Virus record (IMG/VR): IMGVR_UViG_3300038405_000366
Span: 1 to 21,751 of that record
Reading direction: 5' to 3' (one strand)
DNA length: 21,751 nt
Source of the DNA: a virus
In this document: piece by piece, positions 1 through 14,122 of the stretch
How positions within the stretch are numbered: the first letter of the stretch is position 1
How the letters are laid out: each line of letters begins with the position of its first letter
The notes under the pieces: generated by a model
Seen by the model: the letters and a program-made list of their open reading frames with translations, nothing else
Told to the model about the DNA's origin: nothing
The model's database searches: none
Translations under genes and position numbers: made by a program

Positions 1-993
1 TGAGAACCAGCCGGTTGCTGTCATATCGTGCCCGGGAACCGCTTGCGGAATCTCGATATCGTTCACCACAACTTTCATGACGCCCTGGATGGTTCCCATG
101 CTGAGCAGGGCTTCCATGTGGGTCAAGTTGCCGTCGTTTCGCGAGAAAATGATGAGAGCTTTGATCCAGCCGGTGCCGTAGACAAGCGGGACCGGATCAT
201 TGTATTTAGCGCTGTTCTCTTGGAGCGGCGATGGGTGCGTGGTTGTGGCGCCGGCCGTTCTTACCGTGATGAGCGAAGGCACATATTCAAACCCGCCGAA
301 GCGTTTCGTAACATTTCCCCGCGCGTCCCGCGAGAACATACCGCGCTCTATGCACTGGGTTCGCGAATAGTCGCACGATGTAAATGCTTGTCCGGAGCTC
401 AAATTCCCAACTCCGCCAGCAACATCCGCTGAGTACCCGCAGCGGTAATAACGTGAATACCGGCCGAGGCTTCCGCCGTTCAGCGCCTCGGCTCTCTGAT
501 CCGGGGAAGCGGGAAAGTTCCACGCACACGATCGCTGAATCCGCACCTCTGGTAGGGGAATGCGCTGCAGGCTCAGTTTGTTCGTGAATGTGAGAGTAAG
601 CGCGTCTTCCGTAATCTCATCCGGATCTCCGGCCACGCCACGGAACAGAGTCGTGCTCTCGGTCGTAATCGTCCCCGAAGGCAAATCCGCGAATGCAAAA
701 TAGACGGTAAGTTGAGTACCCTTCAACCCGATCTCGGTATTCAACTCCGAAATGGCCGAATCTGCGTTCGCCAGCACCACGGAGAGCTGACTGATACCGT
801 CCATTGCGTCGTCGGCCGAGAGTTGCAGGTCAAACAGATTGTGTTTCAGAACACGAGCTGAATACGGTTGGCCGTTGAATACCATCGAGTGGCTGCTCCA
901 ATATTGCATTTCACCGGAGGGCAGAACACACTCGAAGAACAGGAGTGGTGTATCGGCTTCTGCGAGCTGTTTAACCTGATTTATAGTTGCCAT
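1..993 (-). CDS. Tail hub protein with four-cysteine motif (gpL/GTA hub-like), 3' end cut by window
   Basis: An open frame of 331 codons starts at the ATG 993..991 and is still open at base 1. It begins MATINQVKQLAEADTPLLFF and has a hub-like beta-rich first 150 residues. Four cysteines (C156, C185, C207, C214) lie ahead of the motif KRFGGFEYVP; this Cys4 plus FGGF layout is what is known in lambda gpL and GTA-hub-type minor tail proteins, where the cysteines hold an iron-sulfur cluster. After residue about 250 the sequence changes character (PVPLVYGTGWIKALIIFSRN), resembling the start of gpJ-type central tail proteins, so the product may be a hub-fibre fusion. It starts 3 bases after the stop of the preceding distal-tail gene, so it is cotranscribed. 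The four-cysteine assignment is seen in the sequence; metal binding is inference. Family call fairly sure, full length unknown. Confidence 0.8.
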   Translation of the reverse strand, partial: MATINQVKQLAEADTPLLFFECVLPSGEMQYWSSHSMVFNGQPYSARVLKHNLFDLQLSADDAMDGISQLSVVLANADSAISELNTEIGLKGTQLTVYFAFADLPSGTITTESTTLFRGVAGDPDEITEDALTLTFTNKLSLQRIPLPEVRIQRSCAWNFPASPDQRAEALNGGSLGRYSRYYRCGYSADVAGGVGNLSSGQAFTSCDYSRTQCIERGMFSRDARGNVTKRFGGFEYVPSLITVRTAGATTTHPSPLQENSAKYNDPVPLVYGTGWIKALIIFSRNDGNLTHMEALLSMGTIQGVMKVVVNDIEIPQAVPGHDMTATGWFS

Positions 994-996
994 GTC

Positions 997-1800
997 TCAG
1001 TCCTGAATGGCTGCTTCGATTGAGAAGTTTGTTGCGAAGAGATTCGGGCCTTGCGCCGCAATGAGCAGTTCGTTCACGCTCCAATGAGCGGCCGCATAGA
1101 CCCCGCCTTTTTGAAGTGTGGGCCAATAGCGCGATGGCGCTGTTTGCGGTTCCAGCTGAGGCCCAAATACTGTCACCTGCTGGCCCGCCGCTAATTGTAA
1201 ACCGGCTGTAAAGGTTGCGGCGGTGTCTCCCAACACCCCCGCAGAAACAGCACGGGTCCAGTTACTGCCAATTGTGCAGGCTGTCTCGGCCGCTGACGAA
1301 GCGCCTTGGCGCGTTAATGTCAGTGTCGAGGGTTGATTGCTCATTGCGTATACCGAAAAGCAGTACTGATACCAGGCCGGAACCGCGAGCGTCTGCGTGA
1401 TCGCCTGCGCACTCTGCCCGGTGTTCGTCAGTACAAGCGCTCCTGAGCCGCCCATCGGGTCAGGCATGGCTGACGATACGGTAATGCCGCTCGGGATGGT
1501 CCAGAACGCCGACGACAAAGTTGCACTTCCGCTCAGCATGTTGTCAACCGGGTCAATGAACGTAAATGCATGGACCGGCCCCTGGCACTCCTGAAAAAGC
1601 GTTTGAAGCTGCTGCAGATCGGCTGCATTCAGGGCCGAGTAAGCCAATTGCCAGACAAGCTTCGTAGCGCCAGGGTCAGGCAAAAGGATCAGTTCGCCTG
1701 AAGGGAGTACATTCTTGACGCTTCGAGCGAGGTGCCCTCTGCGAAGGGGGTATTGGGCGATTGCGCCCGTCGAGAACTGGGGGAAAAACAAACTAGCCAT
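997..1800 (-). CDS. Distal tail protein (gpM/DUF2460-like) with an inserted carbohydrate-binding-like module
   Basis: 267 residues from the ATG at 1800, which overlaps the end of the upstream gene by 8 bases. A TTG nine bases earlier is possible, but ATG gives the start MASLFFPQFSTGAIAQYPL, which aligns with the start of the preceding gene product. Residues about 1-100 resemble small distal-tail proteins (FTFIDPVDNM near residue 87). Residues about 105-235 look like an inserted beta-sandwich of the kind common in phage receptor-binding proteins, ending in the typical VFGPQLEPQTAPSRYWPT. The last 35 residues appear to return to the distal-tail fold. Position between the tape-measure candidate and the hub supports a baseplate role. 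The insertion is inferred from comparison with the shorter neighbour; sugar binding is a guess. Confidence 0.65.
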   Translation of the reverse strand: MASLFFPQFSTGAIAQYPLRRGHLARSVKNVLPSGELILLPDPGATKLVWQLAYSALNAADLQQLQTLFQECQGPVHAFTFIDPVDNMLSGSATLSSAFWTIPSGITVSSAMPDPMGGSGALVLTNTGQSAQAITQTLAVPAWYQYCFSVYAMSNQPSTLTLTRQGASSAAETACTIGSNWTRAVSAGVLGDTAATFTAGLQLAAGQQVTVFGPQLEPQTAPSRYWPTLQKGGVYAAAHWSVNELLIAAQGPNLFATNFSIEAAIQD

Positions 1801-2152
1801 ATGTTTCAATCACCCAGAACTCAGTCGACGCCGAATCGATACCCAGATACTCGCTCACAAAGCCCGGCGCAGCAAACCGGCAATTGGGTACAGTCGTCCC
1901 GCTGTAAGGATCCGGAAATGCGAAGGTCGAGTAATCGCCGGCCTGTTCTACGAAAAACGCCTCTAACTGCCTGATCTCTTCTTCGCTCAGGAGATCCAGC
2001 TGAATTCTCCAACTGCGCAGCATTTTGGCCTGCGTGAGAAATCTTTGATCTGCTCCATCCAGAAATCTGACAACGTGTGCGCCTTGGCCCGTCTTAATCG
2101 CCAGCGGGTACTGCGCAACCACTCCAGTACTTAGGGTCGGGAAATTCGGCAT
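1793..2152 (-). CDS. Short distal tail protein (gpM/DUF2460-like), paralogue of the next gene
   Basis: 119 residues. The ATG at 2152 directly follows the TAG of the upstream gene with no gap, and a GGAG sits 7 bases before it. The start FPTLSTGVVAQYPLAIKTG matches FPQFSTGAIAQYPLRRGHLA of the next gene, and FAFPDPYSG corresponds to FTFIDPVDN, so the two are tandem paralogues. This copy lacks the extra module. The position (after tape measure, before hub) is that of RcGTA gp12 or lambda gpM, which link tail tube and hub. Its last bases overlap the next start by 8, indicating translational coupling. Family assignment rests on pattern and position and is moderately sure. Confidence 0.65.
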   Translation of the reverse strand: MPNFPTLSTGVVAQYPLAIKTGQGAHVVRFLDGADQRFLTQAKMLRSWRIQLDLLSEEEIRQLEAFFVEQAGDYSTFAFPDPYSGTTVPNCRFAAPGFVSEYLGIDSASTEFWVIETYG

Positions 2153-2794
2153 CTAAATCTCCGCGATTACGTCATTCAGAGAACTCGAGTTGAGCAGTGC
2201 CTGCTTGACTGCCTGGGCGATCTGCGCACTCTGATACTGAATGCCCGAAGTTGTGTTTTGGCCGGTTCCGGTAACAACAGTCGAGGTATTGCCGCTCTGA
2301 TAATCCGAGGCACCGTTCGAACCCACCGATATGGTTGCCTGCTGCGACTGTGGAAGTTGAAAAGGCACCAGCGCCGGAAGGGTAGTCTTCCCCCCTCCGA
2401 AAAGGTTTGATAAGCCCGAAAACACGCCTCCCAAACCGCCAATGCTTCCAAGCAGGCTGAGACCGCCGCCACTGGTGATGTTGCTCGCGACACCGCCCGA
2501 AAGGCTATGCTTCAGCACCTTGCCCCACTCGCCAGAAGAACTGCCCGCGCTAGCGCCTAAACTGGAAGGCGACCCGAACTTGATACCCGCGGGCACGTCC
2601 CTCGCGCTGAAACCGAGCGGCTTTAACTCATTGCCCGCCCCTATTCGTGGCTGCCCAGATCGCTGATTGTCCGATGTGGACAGCATCGAACCGATCAGAT
2701 CCGTCGCGCTAAATGTCGTCAGGCTGGTACCCGTGGTATTCGATTTACTCAGCTGGCTGAAAATCGATGTTAATAAGTTCTTACTGCTGGACAT
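2153..2794 (-). CDS. Putative short tape-measure protein
   Basis: 213 residues from ATG 2794, chosen because GGAG lies 7 bases upstream; a TTG at 2824 has no such site. The start overlaps the stop of the frameshifted chaperone frame by 14 bases. The protein is Ser/Gly/Thr rich, has no cysteine, and carries one hydrophobic Gly-rich stretch (LSLLGSIGGLGGVFSGL, about residues 113-129), as expected for a membrane-interacting tape-measure segment. Position between chaperone and distal-tail genes is the tape-measure slot. At this length it is far shorter than the 600-1,000+ residues of most siphophages and close to the roughly 220 residues known for RcGTA. The role is inferred from position and composition; it could instead be a small virion protein. 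Confidence 0.5.
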   Translation of the reverse strand: MSSSKNLLTSIFSQLSKSNTTGTSLTTFSATDLIGSMLSTSDNQRSGQPRIGAGNELKPLGFSARDVPAGIKFGSPSSLGASAGSSSGEWGKVLKHSLSGGVASNITSGGGLSLLGSIGGLGGVFSGLSNLFGGGKTTLPALVPFQLPQSQQATISVGSNGASDYQSGNTSTVVTGTGQNTTSGIQYQSAQIAQAVKQALLNSSSLNDVIAEI

Positions 2795-3119
2795 TTTGCT
2801 TCTCCGCTTGCCATTCGCGTTCAAGAAGGAGCATCGCCTCGACCGACTTCGCGTCCATCGAGAACAGAGGGCCTCCCCCGCCGCCCAGTTCCTTCCAGAT
2901 CAGAAATTCCTCAAGCCATGCTGCGCTTTGAGCCGTAATGATCGACTTCGGACATGCCGCCGAAGTCGTTCGCGACCGCGCCCAAACAATTTTGCCGGTC
3001 GTCGTGCCGCTTCGATCAAGGTGAGCGCAATTTCGTATCGTCGCCAGGCCGCTTGCCCGACACGGATCGCATTTCCACGCGGCTGGCGAGGAGAATTGAA
3101 AATGAAATGCGATCAGGAG
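2781..3119 (-). CDS. Tail assembly chaperone, -1 frameshift extension (T domain)
   Basis: This 112-codon frame has no plausible start codon of its own and is entered by -1 slippage at the end of the chaperone gene (codon CTC at 3119). The fusion product would be 243 residues. The frame starts LLIAFHFQFSSPAAWKCDPC and contains four cysteines in a C-x2-C ... C ... C pattern (CDPC, RNC, ACPKS), which looks like a small metal-binding knuckle. It ends in a clearly protein-like helical part (AAWLEEFLIWKELGGG, then VEAMLLLEREWQAEKQ). The TAA at 2783..2781 overlaps the tape-measure start. In lambda the corresponding GT fusion recruits tail tube subunits to the tape measure; the same role is inferred here. 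The Cys pattern and the continuous frame are seen directly. Confidence 0.72.
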   Translation of the reverse strand, partial: LLIAFHFQFSSPAAWKCDPCRASGLATIRNCAHLDRSGTTTGKIVWARSRTTSAACPKSIITAQSAAWLEEFLIWKELGGGGGPLFSMDAKSVEAMLLLEREWQAEKQNVQQ

Positions 3120-3125
3120 TTTTTT
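3041..3125 (-). promoter_or_regulatory. Programmed -1 ribosomal frameshift signal: slippery heptamer plus pseudoknot
   Basis: In the mRNA sense the zero frame reads GAA AGA AAA AAC TCC TGA, so the heptamer A-AAA-AAC (3125..3119) is in the exact X-XXY-YYZ register. Four bases later a perfect 11-bp stem begins: GATCGCATTTC (3114..3104) pairs with GAAATGCGATC (3075..3065) across a 28-base loop. Within the loop TCGCCAGCCGC (3089..3079) can pair with GCGGCCTGGCGA (3052..3041) with one bulged base, which makes an H-type pseudoknot. The zero-frame stop lies 3 bases past the heptamer. All of this is read directly; that it works as a recoding site follows from what is known of tail chaperone genes. 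Confidence 0.8.
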
Positions 3126-3511
3126 CTTTCTTGCTCGTCGAGCGCCGTTTCCGACCTGATCATTGAAATCGCTTCGTCGACCAGATCTTCAGGGCCCTTC
3201 TCAACCAATAGATTCACATTCGCCGGCTGCGCATCAATCAATAAGCCTTTGATCTCTGCGAGGCCCCATTCAAGATAGAGCTTGCGCGCCAATAGGTCTG
3301 ATAACGATGCTTCGAGCTGATCGGCTGCATCTCCAGCCCGTAGGAACTCATTCTTGAGCGTCAGTTCCCGTGTGCGCTGCGTCAGCTCGATTCTCTGGGC
3401 GAGCGAGCATCTTCGGATCGCGAAGTGCACGCCCGGACAAAGCGCGCTTTCATGCCAGACGATGCTCGAGTAGCAACACTCTTTATGCGAAGGCGATGTA
3501 GATTTCATCAT
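3113..3511 (-). CDS. Tail assembly chaperone (G frame)
   Basis: 132 residues from ATG 3511, preceded by AAGGTG six bases upstream, and overlapping the 3' end of the tail tube gene by 29 bases. A central part is helical (IELTQRTRELTLKNEFLRAG), followed by LYLEWGLAEIKGLLIDAQPA and EKGPEDLVDEAISMIRSE. It ends EQERKNS at the slippery site. The position between tail tube and tape measure, the acidic C-terminal half and the frameshift signal identify it as the G-type chaperone, which keeps tail tube and tape measure soluble during assembly. The WHES...PGVHFAIRR segment suggests that the N terminus is real well upstream of the helical part. An alternative start is the second ATG at 3508. Confidence 0.78.
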   Translation of the reverse strand: MMKSTSPSHKECCYSSIVWHESALCPGVHFAIRRCSLAQRIELTQRTRELTLKNEFLRAGDAADQLEASLSDLLARKLYLEWGLAEIKGLLIDAQPANVNLLVEKGPEDLVDEAISMIRSETALDEQERKNS

Positions 3512-4649
3512 TGGCAACACCTTGAGCAAGATTCTTTTTGAACTGCCACTGAAGGCGGGTTTCTGAGTCGTCAAACGCGGGAATCTCAGGAACTACGGCA
3601 GGCATATAAATGCCCATCAACTGGCCCGTCTGCTGACCCAGTTGGAGCATCGCCGGAACCGGAGTTCTGTTCTTTGCCGCCGCATAGATCGCATTAGTCT
3701 GCGCGTCGTCCTGGGCGAAGAGTGTGAACGTCGAACCAACCTGTCGCGGCCCCGGTACCACTGCCAACGGATACGAAGATCCATACTCCTTCGTCCGCAG
3801 TTCCAGATTGTTCTTCAACTCCACGTTCGCCGCCGTTAATGTGAAGAACTGATCCGCTCCACCGAGCCAGGCTTGTCCGAGATGACCGGGAACAATGGAG
3901 TAATCGAAGCTGCCAAGCGCCGGCTCCGCGGGAAAGCCCTGTAGGCCGGACTCGCCCGGCGCAAAACTAACGGTGTCGAGCAGGTTGGCAGCAGGCCCGG
4001 TGAACGAAAAGCCGTGATAATCACCGTTCACGACGATCTGCAATGAGTCAACGGCTGCTCCGGGTAACAAGCGGCTGGCTGTGGTTACCGGATCCCAGTA
4101 GTCATACAAAGTCACACTCGGCAACACAGTGCCTAACGGAAAAGTAATGGCCGGAGAGAGTGCGCTACTACCGGACGGCGGACTCAAGAACGGAGCGTTA
4201 ATGGTGATCGTCTGAGGGTCTATTACGCTTGTGACAAACCGGATCTCCCCGCCGAAAGCTACAGCCGAGCCTTTCGATAATGCGTGCGGTGCGGTCGTCG
4301 ACATCTGTGTCGCTGTTTGCACGGCGGCGATTATCAACCCCGAACTCGCAACTGGCGTTCCTCCGCATGCAGCCTCAAAAAGCGGTGCGTACCCCGGCTG
4401 ATTATTGCCATTCCACGAAGTGAGATAGGTCCGGACACTGAACGCGGTCTGCCGCCGGCCGTTGCTCGAAAATCCCAAGAATGTGCGCGTGCCCGTTTTG
4501 TCCTGGCGCTTGAGTCCTTCTAGGACCTGCTGTGCCTGCAGGTGCACCGCGGGGAATCTGTTCGCTGCCGTGACTGCCGCCGGCTGAGCATAACTTGCCT
4601 CCAGCGCGACATAGAATCTGTTAGCGTTCGATAAAATGTAGTTACTCAT
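3483..4649 (-). CDS. Major tail tube protein
   Basis: 388 residues starting MSNYILSNANRFYVALEASY. No good ribosome site precedes ATG 4649; the upstream gene stops 10 bases before, so translation is probably coupled. The N-terminal third has the RTFLGFSSNGRRQTAFSVRTYL pattern of tube subunits; a segment around residues 113-150 (MSTTAPHALSKG, VAFGGEIRFVTSV) looks like an inserted beta-sandwich. The C-terminal part (FDYSIVPGHLGQAWLGGADQ, then LELRTKEYGSSYPLA) completes a two-domain tube fold. It lies between the tail terminator-like gene and the chaperone, exactly the tube position in siphophages and GTAs. No family signature is certain by eye; the call rests on length, composition and context. 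Confidence 0.68.
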   Translation of the reverse strand: MSNYILSNANRFYVALEASYAQPAAVTAANRFPAVHLQAQQVLEGLKRQDKTGTRTFLGFSSNGRRQTAFSVRTYLTSWNGNNQPGYAPLFEAACGGTPVASSGLIIAAVQTATQMSTTAPHALSKGSAVAFGGEIRFVTSVIDPQTITINAPFLSPPSGSSALSPAITFPLGTVLPSVTLYDYWDPVTTASRLLPGAAVDSLQIVVNGDYHGFSFTGPAANLLDTVSFAPGESGLQGFPAEPALGSFDYSIVPGHLGQAWLGGADQFFTLTAANVELKNNLELRTKEYGSSYPLAVVPGPRQVGSTFTLFAQDDAQTNAIYAAAKNRTPVPAMLQLGQQTGQLMGIYMPAVVPEIPAFDDSETRLQWQFKKNLAQGVANDEIYIAFA

Positions 4650-4659
4650 AACAGTACGG

Positions 4660-5157
4660 TTAAGGAAGGCTTACATCGCAGCTCAGCGTCACTTTCGAAC
4701 ACGCGACGAAACCGAAGCCTCCGGCCTTCGGAGGCTGAAATTGCACATCGTACTTGCCGGTGAAAGTGAATCCATCTCCCCAATCGCCGACATTGGACCG
4801 CAGCACTTCTGAGAATGCCTCCACATAGAAGTGAATCCATTCGTCCGTCTGAGTCAAAAGGTTCGTACTCGCCCAGATCTCGGCGACAACACTCACAGCG
4901 CCGGAGAAGGACCGAAACTTCTCTGCTTTTTTGTTTTGCACAGCGTTCGTGTAGAGGCAGATTCGCGGATAAGAAAGCTGGATATTCTTATCAGCCAGGT
5001 CAGCACCGGCTGAGCTGGCAGCAATCTGTGTAGTGGCGATCTGTGGCAGTGTGATTTGAGCCGCGCCAGCTATATTCGTGAGAGCCTGTTGAAGTGCATC
5101 TCCTGTCGTGAGCATGCTGATTACCTTTTTCACTGCGAGTAACGATAGAGGAGGCAT
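4660..5157 (-). CDS. Tail terminator / tail completion-like protein
   Basis: 165 residues. ATG 5157 lies 2 bases after the stop of the connector gene and GAGG is 6 bases upstream. The sequence has an amphipathic N-terminal helix (GDALQQALTNIAGAAQ) then beta-rich parts (YPRICLYTNAVQNKK, GAVSVVAEIWAS, FTFTGKYDVQFQPP). Small alpha/beta proteins of this size between the head-tail connector and the tube gene usually cap the tail tube and join it to the head (lambda gpU or RcGTA gp8 type). The position is strong evidence; the family is not recognised with certainty from sequence alone, and a neck or stopper role is the main alternative. Confidence 0.5.
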   Translation of the reverse strand: MPPLSLLAVKKVISMLTTGDALQQALTNIAGAAQITLPQIATTQIAASSAGADLADKNIQLSYPRICLYTNAVQNKKAEKFRSFSGAVSVVAEIWASTNLLTQTDEWIHFYVEAFSEVLRSNVGDWGDGFTFTGKYDVQFQPPKAGGFGFVACSKVTLSCDVSLP

Positions 5158-5159
5158 AG

Positions 5160-5939
5160 TTACCCTCGGCGGATCTGCCTCGACAGCTGGATCCAGCAGT
5201 TCGGCTGCTGCCCGCCGGACGCGTCAGGGCCGTCGATCAAACCTGTAGCAGGAAGCTGCCACGTGGCCCCGATAGGCAACGGCGCCAAGTTCTGCCGGGT
5301 CAAACTGTCGTTTGTTGAGCCCGCATAAACGTTCCATCCGCAGGCGGCTGGCGGAGCTTTTAATACTCCCTCAGCCATGCCGATGACCACACTCGAGCTC
5401 GCAGTGAGAACGCTTCCATTCACAGCGCTGACCGCGCTCTCTTCGCCGATGTCGTTCACCCAGGCCGTTTGCACGAACAGCCCACCCTGAGGAGCGCTAC
5501 CAGTCTCAACGGAAACGAGCGGCACCAAAGGTCTGGGAAGCGGCTTGTAAACGATGCCTACCCCAGACTGGAAGTACGCATCCGCGGCCCGCTCCGTCTC
5601 GCTCTTATATTCGGTCAGCTTCGCATCGAACCGGGTGTTGAGTTGCACGTTGTAGGCTTCGGAGAAAAAACGTGAGAGTGAATCAAAGCAGAGCCACCGC
5701 TGAAGCGTGGGCGTTACAACGACTGTCGACAACCCCAACAGCCTGCGACTCATCCACTGCGGATCCGATGCGCCTACATTGAGAAGCCATAGCATCAGCT
5801 TGTCGGCAATCGCATTTGTCGCAAGCGTGATCTTGGTGTTGATGTCTATCCCATGCGAAGCGGCGATGGAATCGAGCGCAGTCTCATACTCAAGCAGGTC
5901 GTCCTCGGTCACGACGTTTGCGTCTGTGAATAGCGCCAT
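5160..5939 (-). CDS. Head-tail connector (adaptor) with C-terminal Ig/FnIII-like domain
   Basis: 259 residues from ATG 5939, 6 bases after the stop of the upstream gene. Residues 1-125 are mostly helical (EDDLLEYETALDSIAASHG, LSRFFSEAYNV, LTEYKSETERAADAYFQ), as in head-completion adaptors that bind under the portal. Residues about 140-245 are a separate beta-rich domain with the pattern WVNDIGEESAVS ... CGWNVYAGS ... ATWQLPATGLIDGP, which is the common Ig/FnIII-like decoration of phage structural proteins. The two-domain composition is read from the sequence; adaptor function is inferred from the place between capsid and tail genes. The ribosome site is weak (AGGG), suggesting coupling. Confidence 0.6.
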   Translation of the reverse strand: MALFTDANVVTEDDLLEYETALDSIAASHGIDINTKITLATNAIADKLMLWLLNVGASDPQWMSRRLLGLSTVVVTPTLQRWLCFDSLSRFFSEAYNVQLNTRFDAKLTEYKSETERAADAYFQSGVGIVYKPLPRPLVPLVSVETGSAPQGGLFVQTAWVNDIGEESAVSAVNGSVLTASSSVVIGMAEGVLKAPPAACGWNVYAGSTNDSLTRQNLAPLPIGATWQLPATGLIDGPDASGGQQPNCWIQLSRQIRRG

Positions 5940-5945
5940 AAGACC

Positions 5946-6281
5946 CTACTTTTTCGATGCGATCGGCTTCGTGTGAACGCTAAGCTCGCCTTGAGAGCCG
6001 CCCTCAGGAATGATCGCGACTTGAAGCCGCTTCGCGAGTTGAGCCTTCTCCGCTGCTTCCCTCGCGCATGCCTGCGCATCGTAGAAGTGTTTTGCGGTAT
6101 GTTCATCCGCGAGCGCAGCACGTCCTTCCGCGATCAGCTTGGCCGCTGCCTCGCGCGAAACTTCCGAGCAAACTCCGGGCTTTCCACCGTCGGACGTTTC
6201 GAGACTGACAACCACGACGTAGGCGGCTGCTATGCTCGCCTCAATCTCGCGAACCTTCCGGAAGTATTGTTTCAAGTCCAT
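5946..6281 (-). CDS. Small protein of unknown function in the head module
   Basis: 111 residues. ATG 6281 is preferred over the TTG at 6293 because AGAGG precedes it by about 4 bases. It starts MDLKQYFRKVREIEASIAAA, has a short hydrophobic strand (YVVVVSLET), and then a long Ala/Glu/Lys-rich helix (SREAAAKLIAEGRAALAD ... CAREAAEKAQLAKRL). It is not recognised as a known family. Its place directly after a terminator-like hairpin and before the connector suggests a head or neck accessory protein whose expression is stepped down compared with capsid. Coding is supported by the tight spacing to the next gene and clean ribosome site. Confidence 0.55.
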   Translation of the reverse strand: MDLKQYFRKVREIEASIAAAYVVVVSLETSDGGKPGVCSEVSREAAAKLIAEGRAALADEHTAKHFYDAQACAREAAEKAQLAKRLQVAIIPEGGSQGELSVHTKPIASKK

Positions 6282-6290
6282 ATTTCCTCT

Positions 6291-6324
6291 CAAAAAGAAA
6301 AGGGGGAGCCGTTGTGGCTCCCCT
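6291..6324 (-). terminator. Rho-independent terminator-like hairpin after the capsid gene
   Basis: On the minus strand GGGGAGCC (6323..6316), a five-base loop and GGCTCCCC (6310..6303) form an 8-bp GC-rich stem (extended by one pair), followed by CTTTTCTTTTT. It lies 20 bases after the major capsid stop and just before the start of the next gene. Since the tail genes lie beyond it without another obvious promoter, it probably lets part of the transcripts through, giving high capsid and lower downstream expression. Confidence 0.82.
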
Positions 6325-6343
6325 GCCGGTTGGGCCTTGCTGG

Positions 6344-7258
6344 TTAGCTGTTTACCTGAACGGCAAAATTGTTCCGCAGAACACCGCAGCCGTACAGCAC
6401 GTCTACCGTGAACTGCTGCGCCAGCGTGTTCGGCTGATAGCTCATCACGATTCGCAGGCCGAAATTACCCATTTCGGCATACTCCGCAATTGCGCCCGTG
6501 CCAGGAAGAGGTTGCGGCAAACGGCGAACAACCAGGCCGATCGCATCACGCGTAAACGCAAGGTTATGCGTGTTCGGCGTAGTAACACCGCCCGTTGTCT
6601 GAATAAACTGCGACCGGAAGATGAAAAAGTCTTTCATCTTGCCGACATTGCCTTCAACGAGCGCCTTGAGGCCGGCTTCACCGGACGAATAGTACTCACT
6701 AAACCGCGGAATCTGGCGGATCTGAGAGTAAGTATTGGAATCGACCACCAGGTATTTTGGCGCTGACGGGGGAACCTTCGCGCTGAACAGCGATGTTTCA
6801 GCGGCGTCGATGACCGCTTCGGTGACTGCCGTGCCTGCCACGCCCACCGGGGTGTTGCTGGTGAACTGGCTGTAGAGTCCAAGCAGATCGCTCTCGACGC
6901 GCTCGGCAATCGCGATCACGGCCGGCTGCATGTAAGCGCGCAGCAGCTCCGGAAAGGCGAGCGCCTTTGTCACGTCAGGGATCTGAAACGATGCTTCCGC
7001 ATGTGTGTTGAGCACAATCTGCGCGTTCCCCAGGTTCGGGTTTTGCGGCAGCACCGTCCCGCCTTCGGCGATGTTATTCGCCACCAGCACGGGGGGAATC
7101 GGTACGTTGACTGTATCGCCGGCGTGCGCCAATACGGGTTCATAGTCACGATTGACGAGATTGCCCATGATGAGATTGCCCACCAGAGCAGGCAGCGCAT
7201 CGGCAGCCACCAGTTTGACAATCGCGTTCGCCAAATTGGCAGAGGTAATGGTTGACAT
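6344..7258 (-). CDS. Major capsid protein (P22 coat-like / HK97 fold)
   Basis: 304 residues from ATG 7258, preceded by AAGGAG with a 5-base gap; a TTG just upstream is less likely. The N-terminal part (LIMGNLVNRDYEPVLAHAGD, TVNVPIPP) and DVTKALAFPELLRAYM are typical of P22 coat-type major capsid proteins, as is a middle section with LVVDSNTYSQIRQIPRFSEY and a C-terminal FTRDAIGLVVRRLP ... GNFGLRIVMSY. The length matches the family. It follows the scaffold gene, as expected for a protease-free head assembly. A 331-base structured gap precedes it and a terminator-like hairpin follows, so it may form its own expression segment. Confidence 0.85.
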   Translation of the reverse strand: MSTITSANLANAIVKLVAADALPALVGNLIMGNLVNRDYEPVLAHAGDTVNVPIPPVLVANNIAEGGTVLPQNPNLGNAQIVLNTHAEASFQIPDVTKALAFPELLRAYMQPAVIAIAERVESDLLGLYSQFTSNTPVGVAGTAVTEAVIDAAETSLFSAKVPPSAPKYLVVDSNTYSQIRQIPRFSEYYSSGEAGLKALVEGNVGKMKDFFIFRSQFIQTTGGVTTPNTHNLAFTRDAIGLVVRRLPQPLPGTGAIAEYAEMGNFGLRIVMSYQPNTLAQQFTVDVLYGCGVLRNNFAVQVNS

Positions 7259-7589
7259 CAATTCTCCTTAAAAGCTCAAAAGCCGCGGACGCGCTCCACC
7301 GGTCATCGAAGTTACTGTTGATGTTCCGGATGGCGCGATTGACACCGCGACATTTGCGCGTGTTCCTCAATAGCGCAGGGCCACGGCAGCGTGCCGGCCT
7401 AAGAGCAAGCAACGCCTTCTCTCGAGCGGCACACTCCCAACTGGGCCGTATTGCGCGTTATTCAAAAACAGGGCATGCCTCCATGCCCCAACTCACGGCG
7501 CCTGCAGTCGCATACCGTGAGTTCTCGCCTGGCGCTCCGAATACGGCGCGTTCAAGCGATGGCGCTTTCGGAATTCTATACTCCGAAAC
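7259..7589 (-). other. Structured non-coding gap between scaffold and capsid genes
   Basis: No convincing gene lies here on either strand. On the minus strand three hairpins stand in a row after the scaffold stop: TTTCGGA/TCCGAAA (7588..7566, 9-base loop), AACTCACGG/CCGTGAGTT (7523..7490, 16-base loop) and GGGCATG/CATGCCC (7488..7471), the last followed by TGTTTTTG. The remaining 200 bases up to the capsid ribosome site show no promoter that I can name. This gap is unusual in an otherwise tightly packed operon. Confidence 0.55.
7463..7488 (-). terminator. Terminator-like hairpin after scaffold gene
   Basis: The minus strand reads GGGCATG, loop GAGG, CATGCCC, then TGTTTTTG. A 7-bp stem plus a T-rich tail is compatible with intrinsic termination or attenuation about 100 bases after the scaffold stop. 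The T tract is interrupted by a G, so efficiency may be partial. Confidence 0.6.
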
Positions 7590-8174
7590 TTATGCGCCGC
7601 GTAAGGCCTGGGATGCTAGGCGCGAGATGTGTTGACGTATCCGCTCCAACTCTTCTTTGTTCATCCCGGGCTTAATCTTTTCGAGCTCGAAGCCCGCCGG
7701 TTCACTTTGTGCCTGGCTTCGCGAAGAGGATACCGCTCCGCTGCCCCCCGCAATTCTCGCCGGCAGCAGTTCCGGGTTCTCCTCAACAAAATGGGCGATA
7801 TAGTCTTGAAGAGATCTGCCATCGCCGCCCTTCGCCTGAAGACGGCCATCTTCTGTCCGCATGATGTCGTCCTTAATGGCCTTAAAAGCGAGATCGACCT
7901 TCGATATGCCCATCCGCTGCAGCTCTCCTCGAATCTGCGCGTTCCTGTCCGCCTCTTCGGCCATGGCCCGCGCTTTGCGGTTTTCTTCCACAAGCTGATT
8001 CACGCGTGCTTCAAGGCTCTCGCGGCGTTTGCGTTCCTCCTGAAGTTCAGTCTTGTAGGCGGGCTCAGCCTTGCGCTGTTCGGCACTGATGAACTCCTGA
8101 ATCGCCTGCCGCACGACGTCGCGCACGTCCGGCGCCTTTTTCTGTTCCAATTCGTCTGATATCTGATCTGACAT
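7590..8174 (-). CDS. Capsid scaffold protein
   Basis: 194 residues; ATG 8174 has a perfect AGGAGG six bases upstream, overlapping the end of the portal gene region. Residues about 1-90 are highly charged and coiled-coil (AEPAYKTELQEERKRRESLE, VNQLVEENRKARAMAEEADR), followed by a more structured middle (MGISKVDLAFKAIKDDIMR, LQDYIAHFVEENPELLPARI), a Ser/Gln-rich linker, and a basic helical C terminus (NKEELERIRQHISRLASQAL), which in scaffolds usually binds the coat protein. The place between portal and capsid, length, and helical charge pattern fit a phage scaffold. No protease gene is present in the head module, consistent with a scaffold that leaves intact, as in P22. Confidence 0.78.
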   Translation of the reverse strand: MSDQISDELEQKKAPDVRDVVRQAIQEFISAEQRKAEPAYKTELQEERKRRESLEARVNQLVEENRKARAMAEEADRNAQIRGELQRMGISKVDLAFKAIKDDIMRTEDGRLQAKGGDGRSLQDYIAHFVEENPELLPARIAGGSGAVSSSRSQAQSEPAGFELEKIKPGMNKEELERIRQHISRLASQALRGA

Positions 8175-8184
8175 TCATTTCCTC

Positions 8185-9570
8185 CTAACGCAGCAACTGG
8201 GCCTGGATCTCCCGCGCGATCTGGTCTTTGACTTCCTGCCGCGCATCGTCCAGATACTTGAAAGCAAGCCGCTGGAAAATCTGCCGCTTCAAGGTCGGTG
8301 ATTCAATGCCCAGGCTCAACAGACTCGTCGCCTGCTGCAGCTCCGTTCCGAAATCGCTGATGTCCAGTTCATCCAGGCCCATCACCGAAACCGACACGCC
8401 GTCCTCCCGCGCTTCGCTGATTGCACCGGTTATGCGCCTGAGGCAGTCTTTTACAATCGCACCGTAAGCACGCAGAATCTCCTCTGTGATGGTGAAATCT
8501 AACTGCTTGCTGACGGCCGACACGGCATGTCCGCTGTTCATTTCGCCGGATGCCTGCGAAAGATAGCAAACCCGGTAAATCTCTTCCTTCAATGTCTCCA
8601 GGTTGGCGGCTGCAATCTGATACACCTTGCCGTCGGGTTCGGTCCAGCCAAACTTGTCAGAAGGACCCAGTTGCAAGAAGTAGCTCTCTCCCACGATCTG
8701 GTTCCACTCACGATCCGTGTAAATAACCGGCATCGCGAACAAACCCATCGTTATAGCCCAGCCCAGCGCGTTTGACTTATTGAAGTGTTCAAGCTGTAGA
8801 TGAGCGGCCTTATTCATGAGCCACAGTCCGCCATTGACTCTAAGATCAAAGAGCGGCACCCTGCGCTGGCGCGCTAATCCGTGAGCTCCTTGAGCTACCA
8901 GTTCCACCGGAGCTTGCGCTTCCGGCGATTCGGCCCGGCGATAAATACTGTAGTTGGCGCGGTCGTAGTAATACCAATGCGTCTCGCGCACGATCGTGCT
9001 GGAGGACGCATTTGGTTGACGTTCAGTTCGCCGGCGTAGCACAATCCAGTCGTAATCGCCCCGCTCATTACCGCTCCAATTAATAAGCTCCTCGGCTTCA
9101 TAGCGGACCAGAAAGGCGCGTGATAACCCGGCCAGATCCTCTTCGGCCCGGTTTTGAGGTGCATCCGCTGCCCGCGGAAAGTCAAGTAGGATATGGCTCT
9201 GGCCGGTAATGAGCGCATCGGTAAAGCAAGCCCGGAAAAACTGCGAAAGCTTCGTTCCATTGCAATCGCAGTCGTCAGCAAAGGCAGTCAGAAATTCTCT
9301 GCCCGAGGCAAGCCCGCCAGCGAGATCCAGGCTCGGTTCACGCCGGAATAGCGTCGAGGTGTACCAGTCGATAATCGAACCGATGTAGTTCTCGTAAAAC
9401 ACTCTATGCAACCGCTCGGCGTAAACATCGAGCGGTTCCTTCTGCCGTCGCAAAAGGTAATCGGCGGCGCGATTCCTGAACTCCTGCCCTCCCGCGTACA
9501 GATCGCGATACATACGCAGCATGTGGTGTCTGCGTCTGTACTCGGGATGTTCTCGATCGATTTCAATCAT
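8185..9570 (-). CDS. Portal protein
   Basis: 461 residues from ATG 9570, with GAGG about 9 bases upstream; a TTG at 9585 is the alternative. It begins MIEIDREHPEYRRRHHMLRM and has the portal-type features YLLRRQKEPLDVYAERLHRV, YIGSIIDWYTSTLFRREPS, a central wing with FFRACFTDALITGQSHILLD, the crown/stem region (LEHFNKSNALGWAITMGLF), and a C-terminal helical part. Portals of this size form the dodecameric channel at the capsid vertex through which terminase drives DNA. It lies 21 bases downstream of the terminase stop and before the scaffold gene. Family call by pattern; position makes it nearly certain. Confidence 0.88.
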   Translation of the reverse strand: MIEIDREHPEYRRRHHMLRMYRDLYAGGQEFRNRAADYLLRRQKEPLDVYAERLHRVFYENYIGSIIDWYTSTLFRREPSLDLAGGLASGREFLTAFADDCDCNGTKLSQFFRACFTDALITGQSHILLDFPRAADAPQNRAEEDLAGLSRAFLVRYEAEELINWSGNERGDYDWIVLRRRTERQPNASSSTIVRETHWYYYDRANYSIYRRAESPEAQAPVELVAQGAHGLARQRRVPLFDLRVNGGLWLMNKAAHLQLEHFNKSNALGWAITMGLFAMPVIYTDREWNQIVGESYFLQLGPSDKFGWTEPDGKVYQIAAANLETLKEEIYRVCYLSQASGEMNSGHAVSAVSKQLDFTITEEILRAYGAIVKDCLRRITGAISEAREDGVSVSVMGLDELDISDFGTELQQATSLLSLGIESPTLKRQIFQRLAFKYLDDARQEVKDQIAREIQAQLLR

Positions 9571-9591
9571 TCGTCCATTCCTCAACGGTGG

Positions 9592-10917
9592 TCAAAACAG
9601 CCGCTTTCCCACTTCACCCACTTTGGGGTTGTCGCCGTACAAAGCCCAAATCGCATAACCCAACGCATCGGAGGCATGGGTGCGGCGCGGATCACGGGCT
9701 TTGTCAATGATTCCCGAATCGGCCTTGAACATCACCTCTTCGAGATCCTTCACCAGTTCCTTACAGTGCGGGTCGATCTCCAGCCGAACCTCGCCCAATG
9801 CATTTGTCAGCAGTGCGTTGACCCTATTTACACGCACTAGCACTGCGGGGTTTGCCGCCGGTACGCGGATCTTCACGTTCCGAAACCCGGCGCGGTACAA
9901 GAAGCCCTGCAGCATCGTGTAGTCGTTCGTTCCGGTAGTGTGCATGTTCCGCCCACTCGCATCACCGTAGATTTCGAGCGGCCCCCGGTGACCGCCGTAC
10001 CGGTTCTGAAACTCCTGGCATGCCTCTTCCGTCGTCGCCCGTTCGAGCACAATCTCATCGATCACCGCCAGCCGTCCCTCCGTCTTTTGCAGAATGACGG
10101 AGCTCATGGGAGCGACGTTAAAATCCAGTGCCCACATCAGCGGCCTAGCCGGATCATAGCTGTGAGCTGCGACGTGTACGTTCCGGTCAAAGCAGTGGTA
10201 CACCCTGTCTGCCCGGCTGTTAACGTATTCACCGAGCACTTCCTGCCTGTAGAATCGAGGATCGTAACTGCTCTCTAGGCGCTCGTAGTAGTCAGGCGTC
10301 CTCTCCAGCAGGAACCGGTTCTCGAACGGTTGGGCGCGGACGCAGCCATACCCCGCAACGGGTTCATGAATGAACCTTTGATATAGCCAGTCGTGCCCTT
10401 GTGGCGTCCACACGCCAAAGCCGCACAGATTCGCCGCTTTCGGATCGCGCAAACGGGCTTCTAACCTGAGCCAGCCCTCCTCGCGTGTGTAAGAGAGTTC
10501 GTCTATGCCGAACCACGCCAGGTTCGTTCCGCGCAGTCTTTCGGGCTCATCTAGCGAACGAAGCAATATAACGCTGTCAGTGGCTGTAATTGTGAGTTCG
10601 CCATCCGATTTCCGGTGTTCGTAATCGATGTCTTGTTCTTCAAAGGAACGGAACAGGGTTACCAGCGTGGCGTCCCGCAGCATCGCGTACGTGGGCGCTG
10701 CCAACAACCCTTGCCGGGAGGGGTTGCAGTATGCCAGCCGAATAGCTTCACACGCGAGTGCGGCACTTTTGCCCGATCCCACAGGCCCCGAGAAGCCTTT
10801 GAATCTGGTGGCCAGTGACAAGAACTTTGCCTGCGACGGAAGCGGTCTATACGCCCAACACAGAGTCTCGGCGAGATTGCAGGGCAATCTGTGCTCGTCC
10901 ACTGGTGTTGGCCTCAT
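9592..10917 (-). CDS. terL: Terminase large subunit
   Basis: About 441 residues; ATG 10917 or GTG 10923 could be the start, as neither has a clear ribosome site. Numbered from the GTG: Walker A GPVGSGKS at residues 46-53, Walker B AWFGIDE at 136-142, and an RNase H-type nuclease with acidic residues D267 (ALDFNV), D321 (IYGDASG) and D419 (HASDALGYA). All are intact, so ATPase and headful-cutting nuclease should both work. It packages DNA through the portal encoded by the next gene. It is the first gene of the visible operon; no small terminase is found upstream in the window. Confidence 0.93.
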   Translation of the reverse strand: MRPTPVDEHRLPCNLAETLCWAYRPLPSQAKFLSLATRFKGFSGPVGSGKSAALACEAIRLAYCNPSRQGLLAAPTYAMLRDATLVTLFRSFEEQDIDYEHRKSDGELTITATDSVILLRSLDEPERLRGTNLAWFGIDELSYTREEGWLRLEARLRDPKAANLCGFGVWTPQGHDWLYQRFIHEPVAGYGCVRAQPFENRFLLERTPDYYERLESSYDPRFYRQEVLGEYVNSRADRVYHCFDRNVHVAAHSYDPARPLMWALDFNVAPMSSVILQKTEGRLAVIDEIVLERATTEEACQEFQNRYGGHRGPLEIYGDASGRNMHTTGTNDYTMLQGFLYRAGFRNVKIRVPAANPAVLVRVNRVNALLTNALGEVRLEIDPHCKELVKDLEEVMFKADSGIIDKARDPRRTHASDALGYAIWALYGDNPKVGEVGKRLF

Positions 10918-11467
10918 CCGCACATGAAGTTACTGCGGGCAGGAGCCTAGTGAGCCGAAAAAAGCACCTGTAAATAGCGGCAGACGCGATACATAATTTT
11001 TTTGGCCGGTCGGTGATGAGGAGGAGGATGTCCGGAATTTGTTAGAAATTGAACCGATTCCCCGCAGAGCCGGATTAGCTCCGTTTACCCCCCGGATGTA
11101 CTCCTATGCTCACTGCTGGCGGACGCCAAGGTGGACGTTAGCGCAGGTGGTGGGTCGCTTCCGCCCTGATCTGTATCGCGGCGCTATCGAAACCCGCAAC
11201 ACGGTGTTCGGCAGATTCGGCACTTGTGAACCGCGTCGCATCCGCCATTCTCAAACGAGATGCGCGGGAGCCGCAAGAAGCCCGTCAGACTGTATCCGGC
11301 GACATGAACGCACCGATGCGCATCCGGCAAGCAACTGACGAATGCTACCCGACATTTGGCTTTTTTTTAGGAGAATGTTGCCTTTTATTTAGGACGTCGC
11401 ATTGGGCTAGTCACGCATAATCGCTCCAAGATCCGAATGATCTTCGGCCCTGCTGGAGGGGCAATTC
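10918..11467. other. Gene-poor junction between phage module and host-type genes
   Basis: About 550 bases with no ORF that I can support. There are AT-rich patches (a T run near 10,998-11,005 and around 11,361-11,390) and short open frames on the plus strand without a recognisable product. The segment must hold the promoter for the minus-strand packaging genes and the plus-strand promoter for the cytochrome gene. A weak -10-like CATAAT lies at 11,416-11,421, and GGAGG stands about 9 bases before the start at 11,468. A palindrome AAGATC-CGAAT-GATCTT is at about 11,429-11,445. Confidence 0.4.
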
Positions 11468-14122
11468 ATGCGAAGTCTGAAATATACAAAACGTTTTTTC
11501 GGTGTTCAGGAAACAAAGAAACGATTCGCGATCTCTGCTAGCCTTGGCTTGCTAGGGGTTTTGATAGCGAGCGTTCTCATTGGGCGTGAGCAGGCGAACT
11601 ATTATCCGATCTACAACTCCGCCACCTATTCGAGCCCGATTGCGATTTCATCCGACAACCGGCTGGTATGGTCGGTGAATCCGGCCGGCAATAGCGTCTC
11701 CGTCATTCGAACCGACACCGAAACGCTGATCAAAAACATTCCTGTCGGCCAGGAGCCGCAGAGTGTTGCGCTCGCTCCGGGTAACAATTGGGCGTATGTG
11801 GCGAACGCCGCTTCCAGCAATGTCACCGTGATCCGGATTACCGATCCGAATCCATACGCATTCAAAGCTGAGCCGTACGCGAATCTGACGACCGGGGCGG
11901 AGCCGTGGAACATTGTTGTGTCCCCCAATGGGCAGCGCGTGTTCGTCGCCAACAGTTCGCAAGATACGATCACGGTGATAGATGCCAGCAAGCAACGGAT
12001 CATCGGGAATGTGGATCTGCGCGATAGCCTGTGTAACGATCCCGATCATAACCGCCATTTCCAGCCGCGCGGCCTTGCGGTCACGGAAGACAACAGCAAA
12101 CTCTATGTGACGCGATTTTTGTCTTTCACTGCGCCGGGCGGTGTACAAGGTGCGGACAAAGGAAAGGAGGGCGTAGTTTGCCGGTTGGATATCGACACCA
12201 ATGCCAAAGAAATCAAGGGCTATACCCCCGCGGCCGTCATCCGGCTTGCTCCCAGAGTGACTGGGTTCGAGTTCCCCGGCCTGAATCAAAACACGCTCGC
12301 TTTCCCCAATCAGTTACAGAGTATGGTCATCCGAGGCGACCAGGCTTACTTACCGAACATCGCGGCCTCGCCGAACGACCCGCTACGGTTCAATGTCGAT
12401 ACGCAAGCCTTCGTCAATATCATCGATGGAGTGAACGGCGCCCATCAGACGGACGCAAGCCTGAGTAAATTCTTCCTTGGCCGCGAGAATCTGGGCCCCA
12501 ATTTACACCTGGGCGCGCGAGTACCGGAGACGGGAAAGAAGCAGTTATTCTTTGCCAATCCATGGGGAATTGCGTTCACAAATCAGAGCGGGTATGGTGC
12601 CGGGTACGCGATCTCGGCAGGAAGCGATCTGCTAGTGAAAGTCAATGTGGCACCGGACGGCACGCTATACTTTACGGGCGGCCCGTCCACGACCCGCTAT
12701 ATCGACTTAAATGACCCCACCAACCCGGCAACCAGCGGATTCAATGCAGGCAAGAACCCGCAAGGCATTGTAATCAACGCCGCAGGCACCACTGCTTATA
12801 CGGCGAACTTCGTGTCGCGGAATGTCTCAGTTGTGGACTTGACTACGGACAGCGTGCGTAAGGTCATTAGCACAACCGCTCTGCCTGCGCCCGGAAGCAA
12901 ACAAGAAGTGGCACTCGTGGGCGCGGAAGTATTTTTCTCTTCGCGCGGTCATTTTGACCAGCCTCCAGGAACCAAGATTTCAACCGACGAGCGGCTCGCC
13001 CAACTTGGCTGGCAGTCCTGCTCGAGCTGCCATTTTAAGGGCTTTAGCGACGGTGTTGTCTGGGTCTTCAATACCGGTCCGCGTAAGTCCATCCCGCTCA
13101 ATGGAACGTTTGATCCTCAGGATCGGAAGAAAGACACCAGCGAGCAGCGTGTTCTCAACTACTCGGCGATCTTTGATGAGGTTCACGACTTTGACCTGAA
13201 TATCCGCAATGTCTCCGGCCCGGGCGCACTAAAAAAAGCCCAGCCATGTGACGAACCGCCGCCGGCCACGAGTACTTTTGATCCGAATCACGGTTTGCTG
13301 CTGGGAGATGACGATGCGGAACTGGCGCCTTGCACGATCGTTGCGTTCGTAAAGCCGAACGGGCCGGTGCATGGTATCACGCGCAATGAAATCACCATCA
13401 CCTTGCCGGGAAGCCATGTTCCGGTGAAGGCCCTCTCTGCGTTGAACGAGTGGGTCAGGGTTGCAATACGAACTCCCAACGGACCGTTAAACAGTACCCA
13501 AGTCCAAGGTGGCCTTCCGATTTCTGATGTCCTAGCAGGGAGAGCTCTGTTCAAGCAAGCCGGCTGCGAGGGATGCCATGGCGGCAATCAATGGACCTCC
13601 AGCATTCGAGACTTCTCGCCTCCACCAGCAGTTAAGGAAATATTCTGCGAGACCGATACGGGAGCGGGAACGCCGCCGGGATGTCAGAAGGCTGCTGTTA
13701 CAGGGAATCCCGTCAACGCACAGTATCTTGATAAATTCCTGAGGAATATCAACTCATTCGATCTAAACGTGCCCGGTTCGGGAAACAGCATACCGGGTCA
13801 ACCTTCAATCGGGGCGGTTGAGAAAGCAACACGAATACTTGTCAAAGGCGTCCTACAGGCCAAACCGCAGGATGCGCTAGGCAAGGACTTCAACGATGAC
13901 GGCCACGGCAATGGTTTCAGTCCGCCGTCGCTGTTAGGTATCAATGCGTTTCAGCCTTATTACCACAACGGCGCGTGTGAGACTCTCGCCTGCGTCCTCG
14001 CAGATGTCAATCACCGCTCTGCGGGAACGGGCGGTTATGACATACTCTCGGATCCGCACGATCAGGCGCAAGTAGTTCGGTTCCTGGAGTCGGTAGACGC
14101 AAATACCGAGCCGTTCAAGTAG
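11468..14122 (+). CDS. Exported YVTN beta-propeller protein fused to a two-heme cytochrome c domain
   Basis: 884 residues. GGAGG precedes the ATG by about 9 bases. A basic N terminus and a hydrophobic stretch (residues about 21-39, FAISASLGLLGVLIASVLIG) give a signal or anchor. Residues about 45-470 hold propeller repeats (SVSVIRTDTETLIKNIPVG, WAYVANAASSNVTVI, RVFVANSSQDTITVIDAS, TAYTANFVSRNVSVVDLTTD). Two heme c motifs follow: CSSCH at 518-522 and CEGCH at 700-704, in domains like di-heme cytochrome c peroxidase or MauG-type proteins. A periplasmic or surface redox role is likely; substrate unknown. It stands alone on the plus strand, opposite to both flanking clusters. Fusion and motifs are seen directly; function is inferred. 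Confidence 0.82.
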   Translation: MRSLKYTKRFFGVQETKKRFAISASLGLLGVLIASVLIGREQANYYPIYNSATYSSPIAISSDNRLVWSVNPAGNSVSVIRTDTETLIKNIPVGQEPQSVALAPGNNWAYVANAASSNVTVIRITDPNPYAFKAEPYANLTTGAEPWNIVVSPNGQRVFVANSSQDTITVIDASKQRIIGNVDLRDSLCNDPDHNRHFQPRGLAVTEDNSKLYVTRFLSFTAPGGVQGADKGKEGVVCRLDIDTNAKEIKGYTPAAVIRLAPRVTGFEFPGLNQNTLAFPNQLQSMVIRGDQAYLPNIAASPNDPLRFNVDTQAFVNIIDGVNGAHQTDASLSKFFLGRENLGPNLHLGARVPETGKKQLFFANPWGIAFTNQSGYGAGYAISAGSDLLVKVNVAPDGTLYFTGGPSTTRYIDLNDPTNPATSGFNAGKNPQGIVINAAGTTAYTANFVSRNVSVVDLTTDSVRKVISTTALPAPGSKQEVALVGAEVFFSSRGHFDQPPGTKISTDERLAQLGWQSCSSCHFKGFSDGVVWVFNTGPRKSIPLNGTFDPQDRKKDTSEQRVLNYSAIFDEVHDFDLNIRNVSGPGALKKAQPCDEPPPATSTFDPNHGLLLGDDDAELAPCTIVAFVKPNGPVHGITRNEITITLPGSHVPVKALSALNEWVRVAIRTPNGPLNSTQVQGGLPISDVLAGRALFKQAGCEGCHGGNQWTSSIRDFSPPPAVKEIFCETDTGAGTPPGCQKAAVTGNPVNAQYLDKFLRNINSFDLNVPGSGNSIPGQPSIGAVEKATRILVKGVLQAKPQDALGKDFNDDGHGNGFSPPSLLGINAFQPYYHNGACETLACVLADVNHRSAGTGGYDILSDPHDQAQVVRFLESVDANTEPFK

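Follow-up and report, generated by a model that had tools for sequence, protein, structure and literature searches.

The window, by which we mean the whole 21,751-base IMG/VR record that was analysed, very probably carries a programmed -1 ribosomal frameshift signal through which one mRNA would yield two tail assembly chaperones, as judged from the sequences of the window and its relatives. Direct reading of the minus strand placed the slippery heptamer A_AAA_AAC in the register of the chaperone gene (...GAA AGA AAA AAC TCC TGA), with the chaperone stop codon three bases further on, in agreement with the original prediction. The predicted open -1 frame of 112 codons up to the next gene also was confirmed by direct reading; it runs from C3119 to 2784, has its stop codon (TAA) at 2783-2781, and its end overlaps the ATG of the next gene at 2794. 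In the window, no ATG, GTG or TTG codon was present before the invariant N-terminal residues of the -1 domain. The coordinates of the cassette and of the neighbouring genes are listed in the table.

Positions of the frameshift cassette and of the surrounding head and tail genes in the window.
Feature	Position	Strand	Basis or remark
Slippery heptamer A_AAA_AAC	3119-3125	-	Direct read; kept among relatives
Zero-frame ORF, putative G-like tail assembly chaperone	3113-3508	-	ATG 3508-3506 (predicted start), stop TGA 3115-3113
-1 frame extension, putative T-like domain, 112 codons plus stop	2781-3119	-	Open and conserved in every gene-keeping relative
Stem 1, 5' arm GATCGCATTTC	3104-3114	-	Family consensus register 3113-3103
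Stem 1, 3' arm GAAATGCGATC	3065-3075	-	Family consensus register 3077-3066, bulge at 3072
Stem 2, 5' arm TCGCCAGCCGC, within stem 1 loop	3079-3089	-	
Stem 2, 3' arm GCGGCCTGGCGA, C3047 bulged	3041-3052	-	Pair 47-74 is 3079-3052, covaries C-G/G-C
Tail tube-type protein (PHROG 290, annotated minor tail protein), just upstream	3483-4649	-	PHROG E 7.6e-14
Short Gly/Ser/Ala-rich protein in tape-measure position	2153-2794	-	Position, conserved C-terminus ..LNDVI.E.; putative tape-measure role
DUF2460 protein (distal-tail type), first copy	1793-2152	-	Pfam PF09343 E 3.8e-08
DUF2460-like protein, second copy	997-1809	-	Pfam PF09343 E 5e-06, below Pfam cut-off
Major capsid protein	6344-7261	-	Pfam P22_CoatProtein E 8.1e-13
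Portal protein	8185-9585	-	PHROG 145 E 2e-47
Large terminase	9592-10923	-	Pfam PF03237 E 6e-08

Two sets of relatives were analysed. The first was obtained by searches with the chaperone and with the neighbouring tail protein, the latter not presupposing the heptamer, and comprised 31 loci, 27 of which keep the gene with readable sequence; together with the window these gave 28 sequences, two pairs of which are alike. AAAAAAC was present at the same place in all 28. A profile of the -1 domain matched 513 viral contigs and 99 genomes, and 160 loci, partly overlapping the first set, were fetched as a larger set; the search pattern used for it fixes K-K-L, not the codons AAA AAA C. In this set the heptamer was AAAAAAC in 159 loci, the zero-frame stop codon lay two to three codons past the heptamer in 160 of 160, and the -1 ORF was 106-126 codons long wherever the contig was long enough (it runs off the contig in L045 and L049). 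The original prediction had named the lack of the heptamer in relatives, or stops in their -1 frame, as evidence that would count against it; all relatives in which the gene is kept had the heptamer at the same position, and none had an early stop.

Some individual loci were of separate interest. The sole heptamer variant is AAAAAAT (L091:3001-3007), in which the register and the -1 frame Leu (TTA) are kept. At one locus (L028:7161-7700) the whole G/T region has been lost, so that the short gene in the tape-measure position comes immediately after the tail tube gene. The same DNA as the window also is present in an Acidobacteriaceae MAG contig (L113). Neither the -1 domain nor the tail protein had a match among GenBank phages.

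The conserved -1 domain has approximately 110 amino acids, begins with KKLLIAFHF and includes four invariant cysteines (C19, C22, C33 and C58) together with invariant W17, R31, W48 and P59; the cysteines suggest a metal site, which they probably form. An AlphaFold2 model of the domain had a confidently predicted mixed fold (pLDDT 87.8). No Foldseek or VIA match to this model was found in the PDB, a result that does not in itself make the fold new, and searches of Pfam and PHROGs gave no convincing family for the domain.

In the window, the heptamer is followed by the spacer TCCT and by a perfect 11-bp helix formed by GATCGCATTTC and GAAATGCGATC. The loop segment TCGCCAGCCGC pairs with GCGGCCTGGCGA, as was confirmed by direct reading of the predicted pairing with 12 downstream bases and one bulge (C3047). 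Because the pairs of the two stems cross, the topology is that of an H-type pseudoknot, which has a stem 1 of 11 bp, a loop 1 of approximately 14 nt, a junction of 1-3 nt and a loop 3 of approximately 12 nt. A perfect stem of at least 11 bp starting 3-9 nt past the heptamer occurred in 0.04% of dinucleotide shuffles, and loop-downstream complementarity as strong as that of stem 2 in 1.5%. The perfect 11-bp stem originally described, starting four bases past the heptamer, was thus present in the window; in the relatives stem 1 usually is bulged and starts at 5 nt. This register, with a 1-nt bulge and 11 pairs, was paired in 97.5% of cells compared to only 80.7% for the perfect register. On account of this better pairing among relatives, the bulged register and not the perfect helix was taken as the family form. 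Either register is possible in the window, where an additional G-C pair, if formed, would move the start to 4 nt. The family spacer of 5 nt fits the usual range of 5-9 nt (PMC7618472). A search of Rfam gave no convincing family for the frameshift-site RNA.

The two to three codons before the heptamer (3126-3133 on the minus strand, and their equivalents in 148 relatives) showed a strong bias towards GAA GAA (A/C)GA, with GAG avoided, so that the stretch immediately before the heptamer is constrained as well. AGGAG, as a Shine-Dalgarno-like stimulator, was found within 18 nt upstream of the heptamer in just one of 148 sequences.

Both stems lie within protein-coding sequence (the -1 frame), so that their arms could be maintained by conservation of the protein alone; four tests therefore were carried out. 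In 25 sequences, 97.5% of stem 1 cells (bulged register) and 84.4% of stem 2 cells were paired, and the observed covariation score was not reached by any of 500 shuffles or by any slid version. Random synonymous recoding of 148 sequences weakened both stems (mean z of -1.94 for stem 1 and -2.26 for stem 2); in five downstream control windows z was approximately 0. Synonymous codons also were permuted among the sequences within each site, which preserves both the protein and the codon composition. Stem energies were -17.09 kcal/mol compared to -15.57 ± 0.14 kcal/mol after permutation for stem 1, and -17.69 compared to -15.75 ± 0.18 kcal/mol for stem 2, an average loss of 1.5 and 1.9 kcal/mol, respectively, which was more than 10 s.d. 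in each case.

Individual base pairs gave consistent results. In columns 18 and 54, each of which is a third codon position, C18 occurred with G54 in 49 of 50 sequences, a count that is uncorrected for shared ancestry and is inflated by it, and column 18 changed approximately 20 times on the tree. At pair 47-74, C-G occurred with Ala (GCN) or Ser (AGY) codons, and G-C with Gly (GGN) or Ser (TCN) codons. The choice of Ser codon class went with the partner base (Fisher 4e-15; 77:3 versus 5:22). These counts likewise are inflated by uncorrected shared ancestry, and the p-value overstates the independent evidence because the pair changed about five times on the tree. In a large second subgroup SPAA is replaced by NQAG, and a perfect 9-bp stem 2 is kept in a shifted register. 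Synonymous conservation was raised mainly in two places, the codons immediately preceding the heptamer and roughly the first 27 codons of the -1 frame. As read from these alignments, both stems covary beyond the protein requirement; much of either stem is, on the other hand, under constraint from the coding sequence. Loss of stem pairing in relatives was the other observation that had been expected to speak against the prediction; compensatory changes were found in both stems.

Other explanations of the cassette were weighed against these results. Transcriptional slippage on the A run, instead of ribosomal frameshifting, could generate a -1 product, and the heptamer does contain six A residues. 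Such slippage normally needs longer runs, however, and six A residues followed by C or T were found in all 160 loci; it also would leave unexplained both the pseudoknot that follows and a double-shift heptamer placed in register. It was rejected because the A run is short, and we regard it as highly improbable. A different possibility is that the frameshift is real and is stimulated by the stem 1 hairpin alone, stem 2 being a by-product of protein conservation. This would resemble dnaX, a known bacterial site that uses a simple stem-loop (PMC7618472), and would be in keeping with the poor conservation of the outer pairs of stem 2 (columns 37-39), which are paired in just 30-39% of 148 sequences, and with the many stem 2 positions that lie within conserved codons. 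Stem 2 nevertheless exceeded the codon nulls by as far as stem 1 did, Ser codons switch between AGC and TCC with the partner base, the second subgroup keeps stem 2 in another register and with other amino acids, and most indel variants still have a stem at that place. We consider a signal without stem 2 to be quite unlikely.

The identity of the two products also was considered. The AlphaFold2 model of G (pLDDT 84.6) had BFVD matches among annotated tail assembly chaperones (Gordonia phage Teatealatte and Siphoviridae ctiJm4; E 0.014-0.021, prob 1.00), and the best two of 286 PDB chains were YqbN 3klu (Z 6.6) and 2ob9, the tail assembly chaperone of HK97 (Z 6.5), both middling values below 8. 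Searches of Pfam and PHROGs gave no sequence family match for G. The cassette directly follows the tail tube-type gene, and the next gene lies in the tape-measure place. The fold matches and this position support the assignment of G as a chaperone, short of proof; the gene call in the original prediction thus agreed with fold and position, and lacked a family match and a high Z score. It would be consistent with the failed family searches, and with the absence of a structural match for the four-cysteine domain, if G and the -1 domain were some other assembly or regulatory pair sited between tail genes. The location directly after the tail tube-type gene argues against this reading, as does the combination of the frameshift architecture with chaperone fold matches, and it appears improbable. 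The product of the gene in the tape-measure position, for which Pfam and PHROGs gave no family match, has approximately 213 amino acids; this is short for a tape measure and would imply a very short tail if the protein is the ruler.

In the tail chaperone frameshift that we favour, most ribosomes would read G and terminate just past the heptamer. A minority would pause at the H-type pseudoknot, whose stem 1 begins at 4-5 nt from A_AAA_AAC, and after both tRNAs had re-paired one base back translation would go on for 112 codons. The resulting fusion would have approximately 242 residues, with a predicted junction of ...ERKN followed by LLIAFHFQFSSPAAWK..., and the predicted junction peptide NLLIAFHFQFSSPAAWK would correspond to tandem slippage at A_AAA_AAC. 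If the products act as gpG and gpGT do in lambda, the tape-measure protein would be coated by G, and tail tube subunits would be brought in by the additional domain, whose four cysteines probably bind metal. We infer the occurrence and frequency of the shift, its stimulation by the pseudoknot, the binding of metal and the roles of both products. In Escherichia coli A_AAA_AAC is reported to be much less shift-prone than A_AAA_AAG (PMC5009743), so the pseudoknot may be needed for a useful level of frameshifting with this weak heptamer; the high efficiency suggested in the original prediction is not supported. In lambda the two products are made at approximately 30:1, a ratio that is critical (PMC5009743).

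The head-tail cluster that contains the cassette (1-10923 on the minus strand of the window; loci L193-L202 and L263-L301) is, on its distribution, its inheritance and the lack of a nearby tyrosine integrase, a candidate gene-transfer-agent-like element and not a typical prophage. It spans from the terminase to a hub-like protein of approximately 1300 amino acids, which in some genomes is followed by a protein of approximately 910-990 amino acids, and is immediately flanked by host-like genes. That the head, packaging and tail genes are phage-like, and that many such contigs are classed as viruses in IMG/VR, would fit an ordinary prophage family with a narrow host range, in which the cassette would be standard phage biology. 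However, of 257 genomes of the order, which belongs to the soil Acidobacteria and is Bryobacterales according to most record titles, 191 contain the terminase, mostly as one intact copy, and close matches were found almost nowhere else: 396 genomes across the phylum yielded three, each of them also listed among the genomes of the order. The acidobacterial isolate KBS 96 has the cluster as well. The terminase was used to estimate prevalence because the search with the -1 domain profile, which scored at most 11 candidates per genome across the phylum, is insensitive. The portal tree tracked the rpoB tree in 26 genomes (Mantel r 0.61, 0/5000), with 11 of 23 splits shared where 0.2 were expected; the trees are partly incongruent, which leaves room for horizontal movement. 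Flanking genes also were shared, a downstream ABC-ATPase gene being common to 8 of 25 genomes, no tyrosine integrase was found within approximately 40 kb of the cluster in 11 genomes, and the closest GenBank phage terminase was only 34% identical. An ordinary prophage family is doubtful on this evidence.

The simple phage setting of the original prediction was not upheld, since the cluster behaves as an inherited, order-wide host element. Because it usually is single-copy, occurs across the order and largely is vertically inherited, the cassette most likely serves the assembly of a domesticated, gene-transfer-agent-like particle, a conclusion that is less certain than the frameshift itself. 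It is possible, at somewhat less than an even chance, that this is an undescribed gene-transfer-agent-like element inherited across an Acidobacteria order and still selected for making tails, and that the proportion of its two chaperones, of which the longer bears a new four-cysteine domain, is set by a signal like those of eukaryotic viruses, namely A_AAA_AAC with a covarying H-type pseudoknot. Gene transfer agents have been reviewed in 2024 from RcGTA-like Alphaproteobacteria, Bartonella, Brachyspira, Desulfovibrio and Methanococcus (PMC11841831), and prophages have been described in Acidobacteria (PMC5900883); no paper found reports an element of this kind.

Several hundred IMG/VR "virus" contigs, L002-L112 among them, encode the cluster. 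Many of these are probably fragments of host chromosomes, because the window itself has approximately 10 kb of host-like genes, and many contigs of this type would be pieces of host chromosome if the gene-transfer-agent-like reading is true. Directly beyond the terminase (11468-14122 on the plus strand) there is a host-like protein of 884 amino acids with beta-propeller-like repeats and CxxCH haem-type motifs. The flank also encodes two tandem paralogous, host-like and probably secreted proteins of approximately 1050-1070 amino acids (14297-17509 and 17645-20803 on the minus strand).

Frameshifting at tail chaperones is common; a downstream pseudoknot that is backed by covariation over approximately 150 natural variants is unusual. 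These variants provide a ready test set for how bacterial ribosomes deal with pseudoknots at an Asn-type slip site. The predicted frameshift is intact across an order of hosts, which is evidence that the cluster still is used to build particles, and a cluster still in use makes gene transfer directly testable in abundant, poorly cultured soil bacteria.

When compared to known systems, the cassette is of a known kind, a tail chaperone frameshift. DUF2460-type tail genes presumably are common to RcGTA and the cluster, in which the DUF2460 matches are weak. Like RcGTA and other gene transfer agents (PMC11841831, PMC10883770), the cluster is a head-tail cluster at a single host locus, is largely vertically inherited and has no nearby integrase, mobility genes having been searched for as tyrosine integrases; unlike RcGTA, it belongs to another phylum. 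The signal resembles coronavirus-type -1 signals (PMC7618472) in heptamer type, spacer, pseudoknot topology and a first stem of approximately 11 bp, and differs from them in being read by bacterial ribosomes, in its unrelated gene and in its single-nucleotide stem bulges. The capsid gene of Listeria phage PSA (PMC5009743) also combines a phage structural gene with a stimulatory pseudoknot, but its shift is +1, at a proline codon. Bacterial signals of the dnaX type have an upstream Shine-Dalgarno-like stimulator, unlike the present family with its single AGGAG. The HK97 chaperone and YqbN resemble the G model in structure at middling Z scores, with no detectable sequence similarity. A parallel in organization is lambda gpG/gpGT (Levin 1993; Xu 2004, 2013, 2014; reviewed in PMC5009743), where two overlapping ORFs follow the tail tube gene, a heptamer close ahead of the zero-frame stop is the site of the -1 shift, and the longer product consists of the N-terminal chaperone plus an extra domain. 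The window has the corresponding in-register heptamer shortly before the zero-frame stop and a conserved, start-less -1 ORF that would be fused to G. No sequence similarity to lambda G/GT was detectable, and in contrast to lambda, where the heptamer is G_GGA_AAG, the cassette combines A_AAA_AAC with a covariation-supported H-type pseudoknot, a four-cysteine extension and a very short tape-measure candidate.
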